The notes beneath the pieces are model-generated. The model saw only the letters and a program-made list of their open reading frames with translations. It did not search any database and was not told the origin of the DNA. This document shows, in pieces, positions 33,144-39,388 of a stretch of DNA of 64,000 nucleotides (within the stretch, counting starts at the first letter, position 1; every line of letters begins with the position of its first letter). Source of the stretch: Haloplanus sp. CK5-1 (GTDB lineage Archaea > Halobacteriota > Halobacteria > Halobacteriales > Haloferacaceae). The stretch is taken from positions 620,001-684,000 of the forward strand of contig NZ_CP147505.1 of assembly GCF_037201915.1 (NCBI RefSeq), in the 5' to 3' direction. The translations under genes were made by a program, and so were the position numbers.

Positions 33144-33213
33144 GCGCCGTTGGTCCAGTGGTAGGACAGTGGCTTCCCAAGCCACTAGCCCGGGTTCAAT
33201 TCCCGGACGGCGC
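33144..33213 (+). tRNA. tRNA-Gly (CCC anticodon)
   Basis: A cloverleaf of 70 bases: acceptor GCGCCGT/ACGGCGC, D stem GTCC/GGAC, anticodon stem GTGGC/GCCAC with loop TTCCCAA (anticodon CCC), T stem CCGGG/CCCGG with loop TTCAATT. CCA is not encoded. A TTCAAGTGG promoter-like motif lies about 35 bases upstream. Its last 13 bases recur at the start of every 65-bp unit downstream. Confidence 0.95.
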
Positions 33214-33690
33214 ACTCCTTTCCGTCGTTTGTCGTCCGACGTCCCGTTCGTTTCCCTCACGGGACTCCCGGACGGCGCACTCCTTTCCGTCGTTTGTCGT
33301 CCGACGTCCCGTTCGTTTCCCTCACGGGACTCCCGGACGGCGCACTCCTTTCCGTCGTTTGTCGTCCGACGTCCCGTTCGTTTCCCTCACGGGACTCCCG
33401 GACGGCGCACTCCTTTCCGTCGTTTGTCGTCCGACGTCCCGTTCGTTTCCCTCACGGGACTCCCGGACGGCGCACTCCTTTCCGTCGTTTGTCGTCCGAC
33501 GTCCCGTTCGTTTCCCTCACGGGACTCCCGGACGGCGCACTCCTTTCCGTCGTTTGTCGTCCGACGTCCCGTTCGTTTCCCTCACGGGACTCCCGGACGG
33601 CGCACTCCTTTCCGTCGTTTGTCGTCCGACGTCCCGTTCGTTTCCCTCACGGGACTCCCGGACGGCGCACTCCTTTCCGTCGTTTGTCGT
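33207..33690. repeat. 65-bp tandem array beginning with the tRNA-Gly 3' end
   Basis: Seven full units plus a partial eighth. The acceptor 3' strand ACGGCGC recurs at 33207, 33272, 33337, 33402, 33467, 33532, 33597 and 33662, exactly 65 bases apart, and units look identical. Each unit carries TCCCGGACGGCGCA from the tRNA 3' end, a short inverted repeat CGTCG/CGACG and a 7-bp hairpin GTCCCGT/ACGGGAC with an 11-base loop. There are no unique spacers, so it is not CRISPR. The array ends five bases before the stop codon of the Nmad3 gene. Confidence 0.95.
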
Positions 33691-33694
33691 TCCA

Positions 33695-34402
33695 TCACGG
33701 CTGTTCGTCGTCGACGACGTCCCGAAGTCGAGCGGTCGCGTCGGCGTCGAACCGCAGGACACGACGCCACCACGGTCCCTTCCCCGAATCTTCCGAGAGA
33801 TCGGTCACGAGCGACCCCGCCGTCGCCCCCGACGACGGCGCGCTCAGGGGGACTGCCCGGTCGAGGCGTCGGGACCGCTCGCCGCCGGCCACCAACACCC
33901 TCGCGTCGAACGCCTCGCGTTTGACGTGAGCGTTGCTCGCGAACCGCCCGCGCTCGGCGGCGTCGAGCGACCGGTACGCCTCGCCGGTGATCGCTCGCTC
34001 GACGCGGAACTCCCCGATCAGGTACGCCCCCCACTCCGGCGGGAATTGGGGGTTCTCGGCGGGGTCGCCCCGGAGCGAGAGCGTGGCGTAAAAGAAGAGG
34101 GAGTCGCTGGGGTCGAGCGCCGACAGCGGCCCGGCCTTCACGCCGTGTTCGTCGCCGTAGGTGTAGTCGGTCGACCCGTGGACGCCCGCGAACTCGGGGT
34201 CGAGGTGGACCCGGCGGTCGGCCACCTCGGAGACGTCGACGTCGAGCGGAAAGGAGAGGTCGGCGTACGTCGGCACGGCGTCCGCGGTCGGTTCGCGCTC
34301 GGGGATGGGCACGTACGCGAACCGGCCGTCCGGACGGACCGGCCCGCGAAAGCCCGGGAGAGTGGTGTTCGCTCCGACGTTGATGGCGACGGCTCGGGCC
34401 AC
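33695..34402 (-). CDS. Nmad3-like protein (nucleotide modification associated domain 3)
   Basis: A GTG at 34402 gives 235 residues starting MARAVAINVGANTTLPGFRG, the typical Nmad3 N-terminus. Other conserved segments are GRFAYVPIPE, HLDPEFAGVHGSTDYTYGD and FFYATLSL, followed by GAYLIGEFRVE and FASNAHVKR. The domain was named from comparative genomics for association with modified-base systems; its biochemical role is not established. It ends directly at the tRNA-Gly repeat array and lies five bases downstream of the sugar dehydrogenase gene. Confidence 0.75.
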   Translation of the reverse strand: MARAVAINVGANTTLPGFRGPVRPDGRFAYVPIPEREPTADAVPTYADLSFPLDVDVSEVADRRVHLDPEFAGVHGSTDYTYGDEHGVKAGPLSALDPSDSLFFYATLSLRGDPAENPQFPPEWGAYLIGEFRVERAITGEAYRSLDAAERGRFASNAHVKREAFDARVLVAGGERSRRLDRAVPLSAPSSGATAGSLVTDLSEDSGKGPWWRRVLRFDADATARLRDVVDDEQP

Positions 34403-34406
34403 GTCG

Positions 34407-35546
34407 TCAGGCGGGGACGAACCGGACGACGCGGTCGTCGCCCTCCACCGGCGCACCCCGGCCGTCGCGGTTGCTCGTTACGGCGTGGAGGTGGCCCTCC
34501 GGCCCCGTGAAGACCGTCCGAATCCGGCCGAACTCGCCCTCGAAGCGGCGCTCCTCCTCGAGTACTTCGGGAGCGGCGGCGTCGCCATCCAACCGGACGC
34601 GGTGGAGGTGTTCGGCGGCGAGCGTCCCGAAGAGGAGGTCGCCCCGCCAGGCCTCGATTGGGCCGTCGTACACCGCGGCGCTCGCGGGCGCGATGGTCGG
34701 CGTGTAACTCGCGACCGGATCCGTGAAGCGGTCGTCGTCGCTCGGACCGGTCACCGCGGGCCACCCGTAGTTCTCCCCCGCCCGCAGGACGTTGATCTCG
34801 TCGCCGACCTGCGGGCCGTGTTCCGTGCTGTACAGTTCATCCTCCCGGACGACGAGTCCCTGCGGGTTTCGGTGGCCGTAACTGAACACCGGCGAGTCGA
34901 ACGGGTTGTCCGGGTGGGGGTCGCCGTCGAACGTCACCCGGAGCACCGACCCGGCGAGGACGTCGGGATCCTGACCGTTCGCCTCGACCGCCGCGTCGCC
35001 ACAGGTCACGTAGAGCGCGCCGTCGTGAGCGAGCAGTCGCCCGCCGTCGTGGATCGGTGCGCCGGGGATCCCCGAGAGGATGGGTTCGCCCGCCCAGCCG
35101 TCGTCGAGATCGTGACGCACGAGGCGGTTCGCCGTGTTCCCGTCCCCGTCATCGTAGGTCTGGTGTGTGTACGCGTACGGCTCCTCGGGGTGGAAGGCGA
35201 GCCCGAGCAAGCCGCCCTCGCCGACGTGTTCGACACCCGACACCGCGTCGACGACGGGATCGACAGCCCCACCGTCGAGGCGGACGATCCGTCCCGGTCG
35301 CTCGGTGAGATACAGCGTCCCGTCGCGGTAGGCCGCGCCCCACGGAATCTCCAGTCCAGTGGCGAGCGTCTCGGCGAGAACGTCGCCGTCGGTGGCCGTG
35401 GCGGCGGCTTCGCCCGTCCCGTCGTCGCCGTCGGTCGACGATACGGCGGTCGGGTCGTCGGACGTGCCCCACCCGTCCGGCGGCCGACCGGCACACCCCC
35501 CGACCGCCGCCGCGCCGATGGTCGCCAGATAGCGTCGTCGATCCAT
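34407..35546 (-). CDS. PQQ-dependent sugar dehydrogenase-like lipoprotein
   Basis: A 379-residue beta-propeller. The N-terminus MDRRRYLATIGAAAVGGCAG has a twin-arginine-like region and a lipobox (Cys18), so it is probably exported and lipid-anchored. The propeller (about 55-379) shows the GDH-B/Hhip signatures GGLLGLAFHPE, GDAAVEANGQDPDVLAGSVL, YGHRNPQGL, ELYSTEHGPQVGDEIN and NYGWPAVTG. It is a predicted quinoprotein aldose dehydrogenase; substrate and whether PQQ is available are unknown. Confidence 0.85.
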   Translation of the reverse strand: MDRRRYLATIGAAAVGGCAGRPPDGWGTSDDPTAVSSTDGDDGTGEAAATATDGDVLAETLATGLEIPWGAAYRDGTLYLTERPGRIVRLDGGAVDPVVDAVSGVEHVGEGGLLGLAFHPEEPYAYTHQTYDDGDGNTANRLVRHDLDDGWAGEPILSGIPGAPIHDGGRLLAHDGALYVTCGDAAVEANGQDPDVLAGSVLRVTFDGDPHPDNPFDSPVFSYGHRNPQGLVVREDELYSTEHGPQVGDEINVLRAGENYGWPAVTGPSDDDRFTDPVASYTPTIAPASAAVYDGPIEAWRGDLLFGTLAAEHLHRVRLDGDAAAPEVLEEERRFEGEFGRIRTVFTGPEGHLHAVTSNRDGRGAPVEGDDRVVRFVPA

Positions 35547-37849: not shown

Positions 37850-39388
37850 CTACGCCAGGAAGACGTGTCGCGGCCGGTCGGCGAGCACGTCACGCCCCCA
37901 CGAGACGGTGTCGGCGAACTCGTCGGAGCGGAAAAAGCCCATGGCGTCCTCCTGGGAGCGCCACTGGCTGGCGATGAACATGTCGTTCTCGTCCTCGACG
38001 TTGATCATCAGGTCCGTCTCGCCGTGACCCTCCATGTCCGCGAGCAGTCCACCGACCGTCTCGAACTTCTCGACGAAGTCCTCCTGGTGGTCGGGCTTGA
38101 CCGTGTAGAACATCCCCATCGTCCCGAAGCCGGACTCCTCGCCGGCCCTGTTGACGATGTCCGGGAGTTCCGAGAGGAAGCCCGCGGCGGTGTCCGCCGC
38201 GCTCGCGGTGTCCCAGATGCTCACGACCGCCCGCCGGTCCCGGTCGAGGGCGTCGTACACTGCGGTCTTGACGTGCGTGTCGTAGTGGTCGAAGTTCGAT
38301 CGGAGACCGTCGACCTCCTCGAACAACCCGTCGGCGTCGGCCTCGGAGTAGAGCACCGTCGCGTACACGTCCTCGCCGTGGGGCTTGCCGGCGTAGATGT
38401 CTAGGTCTTCGAGTTCGCCGCGGATGTCGTCCTCCTCGTCCCCGCCATCGTCGCCGTGAGTGTGGTCGCCGCCGTGGTGACCGCCATCGTCGCCGTGAGC
38501 GTGGTCGCCGCCGTGGTGACCGCCATCGTCGCCGTGAGCGTGGTCGCCGCCGTGGTGGCTACCACTCTCGCCGTGGGCGTGGCCGTGACCGTCGTCGTCG
38601 GCCGCCTCGGCCGGGACCGTCTCGCCCGCAAGGAACGCGGGCAGGTCCTCGGGCGGGAACCGGCGGCCCACGTAGAAGGGGCCGAACTCGCTGTAGCGGG
38701 CGCTGGCCTCGTCGTAGCGCATCTCGTAGACGATATCTTTCAGGTCGGTCGGGTCGTCGGCGAAGAGGGTGACGCCCCACTCCCAGTCGTCGAGGCCGAC
38801 CGAGGAGGCGACGATCTGTTTCACCCGACCGCCGAACTCGCGGCCGTGTTCGCCGTGTTCCTCCATCATCTCTCGGCGGCGCTCGAAGGGCAGGTCGTAC
38901 CAGTTGTCCTGTTCGCCCCGTTTGCGACTCATCGGGTAGAAACTCGCGTACGTGTCCGACGGCACGTCGGGTTCGAGTTTCCCCTCGATGTACCGCCGCA
39001 GCCCCGTGTCGACTTCCTCCTCGTCGTCGGCGAAGTAGGCGTCGGAGACGTAGCCGCTCACCTCGGTGACGGAGACGTAGGAGGTGGACTGCTCGGTGAA
39101 CGCACCGAGCGCCGTGCGGTCGAACCGGCGTTCGGCCGTCGAGAGGGCGTCGAGCGTCGGCCGCAGGTGGACGATCATCAGGTCGGCCTTGTGGCCGAGG
39201 GTCGAGAACACGGCCGAGGCGCCGTCGTCGGCGTCGGCGACCGCCTCGTGGCGCTCGAAGTAGTCGATACCCTCCTCGATCGCTGCGTCCCGCTCCCGTT
39301 CGGGGGCGTCGCGCCACGACGCCCAGTCGATCCGACGGAAGTCGTGCAGTACGTACCAGCCTTCGTCCGTCTGGGGTGGCTCGCGCAT
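37850..39388 (-). CDS. pitA: PitA-type fusion: chlorite-dismutase-like domain plus ABM domain
   Basis: A 512-residue fusion. Residues 1-255 are a chlorite dismutase/HemQ-like heme domain (WYVLHDFRRIDW, STLGHKADLMIVHLRP, YPMSRKRGEQDNWYDLP and the helix EHGEHGREFGGRVKQIVASSVGLDDWEWG, whose histidines could bind heme). Residues 270-325 are a His/Asp/Gly-rich linker with three near-identical 13-residue repeats. Residues 335-512 contain two antibiotic-monooxygenase-type ferredoxin folds. Haloarchaeal PitA has this layout. A heme-handling role such as coproheme decarboxylation is possible; the linker should bind metal. Confidence 0.9.
   Translation of the reverse strand: MREPPQTDEGWYVLHDFRRIDWASWRDAPERERDAAIEEGIDYFERHEAVADADDGASAVFSTLGHKADLMIVHLRPTLDALSTAERRFDRTALGAFTEQSTSYVSVTEVSGYVSDAYFADDEEEVDTGLRRYIEGKLEPDVPSDTYASFYPMSRKRGEQDNWYDLPFERRREMMEEHGEHGREFGGRVKQIVASSVGLDDWEWGVTLFADDPTDLKDIVYEMRYDEASARYSEFGPFYVGRRFPPEDLPAFLAGETVPAEAADDDGHGHAHGESGSHHGGDHAHGDDGGHHGGDHAHGDDGGHHGGDHTHGDDGGDEEDDIRGELEDLDIYAGKPHGEDVYATVLYSEADADGLFEEVDGLRSNFDHYDTHVKTAVYDALDRDRRAVVSIWDTASAADTAAGFLSELPDIVNRAGEESGFGTMGMFYTVKPDHQEDFVEKFETVGGLLADMEGHGETDLMINVEDENDMFIASQWRSQEDAMGFFRSDEFADTVSWGRDVLADRPRHVFLA
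38446..38570. repeat. 39-bp coding repeats in the PitA linker
   Basis: Three in-frame units encode H-H-G-G-D-H-A/T-H-G-D-D-G-G on the minus strand. They form the His-rich linker and are nearly identical at the DNA level, so copy number could vary by slippage. Confidence 0.8.

Follow-up and report, generated by a model that had tools for sequence, protein, structure and literature searches.

What is the perfect tandem array that follows the tRNA-Gly(CCC) gene of Haloplanus sp. CK5-1, and how did it come to stand there? Within the window, i.e. the whole stretch of 64,000 nucleotides analysed here, which runs from base 620001 to base 684000 of the contig, the tRNA gene lies on the forward strand at 33144-33214 (or 33215) according to ARAGORN and Rfam, and the 14 bases at its end (33201-33214) are at the same time the beginning of the first repeat unit. 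TRF describes 33201-33690 on the same strand as a tandem array of 7.5 copies with a period of 65 bp, 100% matches and no indels, and self-comparison at a shift of 65 bases gave 0 mismatches over 490 bases. This confirms the first-pass annotation, which had described identical units at exact 65-bp spacing, built on the 3′ end of tRNA-Gly(CCC) and containing a 7-bp hairpin GTCCCGT/ACGGGAC; 14 terminal tRNA bases open each unit, and the hairpin is present. With one mismatch allowed, chance would give 0.7 copies of CCCGGACGGCGCA in the window; there are 8, every one of them inside the array. The genome search located the array sequence at a single locus in the single-contig 3.24-Mb genome, which excludes a common unrelated satellite spread genome-wide. 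The last, partial unit (33656-33690, from sequence and TRF) stops within an antisense arm, and the array ends, as had been noted, beside the stop codon (33695-33697) of the minus-strand Nmad3 gene (33695-34456), a neighbour outside the element that was recognised as an open reading frame with a profile match to PF18754 (E = 1.7e-46). All three forward frames of the 65-bp unit are stop-free; the product would be Arg-rich, unlike the acidic proteins of halophiles, and therefore we rejected a protein-coding unit and take the stop-free frames as chance. Elsewhere in the window, a 39-bp tandem repeat (38442-38582) inside the minus-strand open reading frame 37850-39388 encodes a His/Asp/Gly-rich stretch, and a DDE transposase gene (PF01609; 27988-28980, minus strand) adjoins a gene for a PAS/histidine kinase.

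The array is composed of what we call echo elements, which sit directly behind a tRNA gene and have the order A (tRNA 3′ end), x (spacer), A′ (antisense of the same tRNA), L (loop module) and again A. All parts of unit 1 lie on the forward strand. Sequence and layout place spacer x, the trailer adjoining the tRNA end, at 33215-33229. The antisense arm A′ at 33230-33238, assigned from the fold, covariation and comparison with other tRNA ends, pairs with the tRNA-end copy that follows (33269-33277). The inner hairpin (33241-33265), supported by the fold and by compensatory changes, consists of GTCCCGT (33241-33247) and ACGGGAC (33259-33265), and the first echo at 33266-33279, recognised by its sequence matches as a copy of the tRNA-Gly 3′ end, opens unit 2. 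The 65-bp unit folds as one hairpin with two stacked helices (-25 kcal/mol, z = -3.1), in which the trailer segment GTCGTCCG, antisense to the next tRNA-end copy, adds an outer helix of 8-9 bp beyond the 7 bp of GTCCCGT/ACGGGAC; this antisense segment had been overlooked in the first-pass annotation. The hairpin is not followed by a run of T, which speaks against the terminator array that had been suggested for this locus.

Echoes are found behind many other tRNA genes. The window genome has 44 tRNA genes, all of whose loci were retrieved; 43 could be tested for an echo, for which we required a 14-nt match, with no more than 2 mismatches, to the gene's own 3′ end in the 300 bp that follow it. 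An own-end echo was present downstream of 17 of the 43 genes and upstream of none (0/43), and a control with swapped tails from other tRNAs gave 0.9% echoes. In a sample across the order, 13 of 39 tRNA genes were followed by an echo, compared with 0 of 31 elsewhere in the phylum. Other tRNAs followed by elements of this layout include Ala(GGC), Ala(CGC), Gly(TCC) and Arg(TCT). Arrays are likewise not restricted to the Gly locus: in the window genome, the intron-bearing elongator tRNA-Met (C1:3218600-3220800) is followed by a perfect 123-bp array with seven echoes, and tRNA-Glu(CTC) (C1:2431313-2432587) by two echoes at 92-bp spacing in perfect units. Perfect or near-perfect arrays were found in other genomes at Arg(TCT) (75 bp) and at the tRNA-Lys of Halorientalis regularis (108 bp); Halorientalis sp. 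LUM.68 has a tRNA-Lys echo array of 107 bp. The 20-base core of B1, the commonest loop module, was searched for in about 85,000 species, where it occurred 75 times, nearly always in haloarchaea, and in 66 of the 75 cases no more than 520 bp behind a tRNA; the remaining nine were mostly at contig edges or at tRNAs overlooked by the finder. In 51 B1 core loci that were measured closely, 80% continue into the end of their own tRNA with 0-1 mismatch. With its own echo downstream, its antisense arm and its hairpin, the window array is a member of these haloarchaeal tRNA-end echo elements. The family, which accompanies roughly one in three haloarchaeal tRNA genes, is apparently undescribed, as no published account was found in a partial literature search that mostly did not include subscription papers.

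Two types of element can be distinguished. In type A, the kind found in the window array, an echo of 13-14 nt goes together with an A′ complementary to the T-stem/acceptor strand. The type B echo typically measures 22 nt, reaching from GGTTC to the discriminator (exactly so in 50/114), and here A′ is complementary to the T-loop and T-stem. The antisense arm tracks the identity of the host tRNA. In type A it is GCCGTCCG at Gly, TGGACTCGCCG at Ala and CGGGCGCGATG or CGGGCAC at Arg, and compensatory changes were found at 9 of 15 pairs (23 cells), while controls with slid partners gave 0-5; the type A acceptor antisense is known from a small number of tRNA species (Gly, Ala, Arg), and several elements do not reach significance individually. 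In type B, the antisense base at the two variable T-loop sites forms a Watson-Crick pair with the tRNA in 75/79 and 78/79 cases, even where the tRNA has a rare variant, and T-stem pairing with the own tRNA amounts to 3.56 of 5 pairs versus 3.07 for shuffled tRNAs (0/5000). An extension of the type B antisense over the acceptor stem was rejected because 80 of 1000 shuffles were equally good; only the T-loop/T-stem part holds. The inner stem can be exchanged as well, as in a type A member from another family of the order (genome G054), where it reads TTCTCGT/ACGAGAA. The L module, on the other hand, recurs at various tRNAs and in genera far apart, always in one orientation: where loci had been selected without use of the L-module motif GACCGTGG, this motif was found 20 times in sense and 0 times in antisense, and a second set, partly chosen by the motif, likewise contained no inverted L modules. 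Thus, the L modules have a fixed polarity and are shared among tRNAs and genera, while the arms match the host tRNA.

Paired arms that covary in this way might be expected of a functional RNA. In such a case, cleavage of putative transcribed units at every copy of the tRNA end could yield small RNAs of unit length, or the hairpin could steer 3′ processing of the tRNA. The good fold of the unit (z = -3.1), the strong arm covariation in both types, the strict orientation of the L module and the small RNA annotated at the similarly organised tyrV locus of E. coli are in favour of this explanation. However, helices that are kept for RNA folding should tolerate G-U pairs and not A-C mismatches, and we counted 47 GT versus 63 AC in type B and 5 GT versus 11 AC in type A. 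Since A-C is at least as frequent as G-T, the pairing of the arms looks as if it were maintained on DNA and not by RNA folding. Related species, moreover, differ in the presence of the element at one tRNA, and about 60% of the tRNA genes in the window genome have none. A function as RNA is therefore unlikely in our view, though it is the alternative that we take most seriously.

The wobble counts give no support for selection at the RNA level, including selection on the decoy for tRNA 3′ processing considered in the first-pass annotation, and look compatible with maintenance at the DNA level, e.g. by template switching, which was reported to create and maintain hairpins (PMC8794818) and to homogenise the arms of inverted repeats (PMC8604942). 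Free template switching, however, should invert the loop as well. Inverted L modules are absent, so that loop inversion by this route was rejected, and the strict orientation of L counts against template switching in its free form.

A different origin was suggested by the first-pass annotation, namely that the units are serial integration scars at the tRNA. On this reading, mobile elements that target tRNAs would have integrated and been lost repeatedly, leaving att copies behind. The 3′ ends of tRNAs are common integrase targets, and the type B echo starts at the T-loop, a usual crossover region. Echo elements indeed share with the att duplications of integrative elements a direct repeat of the tRNA 3′ end; they differ in that no element lies between the repeats, in the internal antisense arm, in the short conserved spacer and in that no mobile carrier was found. 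The spacers are made of conserved modules with antisense arms, and the B1 core stays near its own tRNA (66/75 within 520 bp) and never lies at the distance expected of a mobile element. The element was not found in plasmid and phage collections, nor the B1 core in viral contigs; two viral matches to a looser pattern both lacked the element layout, and a viral origin was rejected. A mobile element carrying the 65-bp unit as attP, for which a search had been suggested, was not found in the plasmid, phage and viral collections. We consider integration scars very unlikely. Echo elements also resemble hairpin repeats of the REP/MITE type in being short, hairpin-forming and dispersed, with shared modules, but they are bound to tRNA 3′ ends and their arms follow the host tRNA. 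Mobilisation by a REP/RAYT system was rejected for the window genome, as the Y1 transposase (PF01797) is absent from it; the same holds for genomes G010 (79% complete) and G011. The regular spacing of the window array is reminiscent of CRISPR arrays and casposon target sites, and casposons also use tRNA 3′ ends. A CRISPR array was rejected because the whole unit is identical and variable spacers are absent.

The history of the array can be approached by comparison of the same locus between species. In 12 congeneric genomes, tRNA-Gly(CCC) is followed by no type A unit, by one or two diverged ones, or by the window array; a longer type B element is present or absent and sometimes precedes the type A units. 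At Ala(CGC), the window genome has type A and G010 type B. Hence, echo elements at one and the same tRNA vary between species. In most congeneric genomes, about 1.2 kb of sequence, membrane-protein-like in several of them, lies between tRNA-Gly(CCC) and Nmad3; this sequence is missing in the window genome (where 33691-33694 takes its place), in G009 and in G010. The perfect identity of the 7.5 copies points to recent growth or homogenisation. Both large arrays, Gly and Met, stop within the antisense arm, which hints at the hairpin as breakpoint.

We propose that the array arose when a single tRNA-end echo element of a haloarchaea-wide family was recently amplified in tandem, a reading to which we assign a probability of roughly 60%. 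The element would have arrived behind the tRNA by a DNA-level event that duplicated the tRNA 3′ end. Its arms might then stay matched because, at replication, either arm serves as template when the other is synthesised or repaired, by hairpin-directed template switching. The direct repeats A...A would permit expansion or deletion of units by slippage or unequal recombination while leaving the tRNA intact, and at tRNA-Gly(CCC) such events between tRNA-end copies could have produced the 7.5 copies of 65 bp. None of these steps would require a benefit to the cell. The amplification step of the replication-slippage array considered in the first-pass annotation is thus supported by the perfect units and by the direct repeats flanking the element; the event itself is unobserved, and no insertion, expansion or deletion was seen in a comparison with one genome per species and within-genus flanks too diverged for a clean empty site. 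Slippage without any special element is another matter. A plain minisatellite, arising from a chance duplication of tRNA end and trailer with subsequent expansion, would agree with the perfect units of the window; other species (species being compared here, not strains) have none, one or two diverged units. The unit is known as a diverged single copy from relatives and from a second family of the order, and behind other tRNAs its arms match the host, which makes this explanation highly improbable. There is only a slight chance that the array is an assembly artefact, a collapsed or inflated repeat, as the perfect identity and a genome judged from its assembly alone might suggest, given that the genome is a single contig and that comparable arrays occur at other tRNAs and in other assemblies.

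To our knowledge, repeats built on a tRNA 3′ end were known from one locus, tyrT of E. coli. The 178-bp repeats of E. coli tyrT/tyrV (rtT RNA, RF00391, gene rttR) are the closest known system: like the window array, they follow a tRNA gene immediately, as tandem units that each contain a copy of the tRNA 3′ end (the last 19 nt in E. coli), and at tyrV of K-12 (NC_000913, 1285900-1287600) each unit also has an antisense, GGGGAAGGAT, of the tRNA-Tyr 3′ end. The hairpin of rtT has reportedly been proposed to steer tRNA 3′ processing. In E. coli the unit overlaps an annotated protein gene, tpr, and the echo was found only at tyrTV among five tRNA loci checked, in comparison to about a third of the tRNA genes in haloarchaea. 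The model RF00391 gave four matches at the E. coli locus, which served as control, but none in haloarchaea, with a cut-off of E = 5 for the window stretch and of E = 1 for four further array loci. The haloarchaeal arrays are therefore of the same kind as rtT in layout and not members of the rtT family. More tentatively, and with odds that we put somewhat below even, we speculate that haloarchaea harbour a class-wide set of tRNA-bound DNA hairpin elements which spread between tRNA genes, with arms rewritten to each new host tRNA by DNA-level templating and the tRNA left intact, and that the tyrT repeats of E. coli are their bacterial counterpart.

For the annotation of genomes, echo elements are a caution against labelling tRNA-end repeats as attachment sites. 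They also provide many natural replicates for the question of whether templating at the DNA level can give rise to covarying hairpins in the absence of selection on RNA, a question that matters for the use of covariation as evidence for functional RNA. For the haloarchaea themselves, a layout of tRNA-end repeats is common at their tRNA genes, the arms matching whichever tRNA stands next to them, and the echo loci are fast-changing, possibly copy-variable sites beside essential genes.
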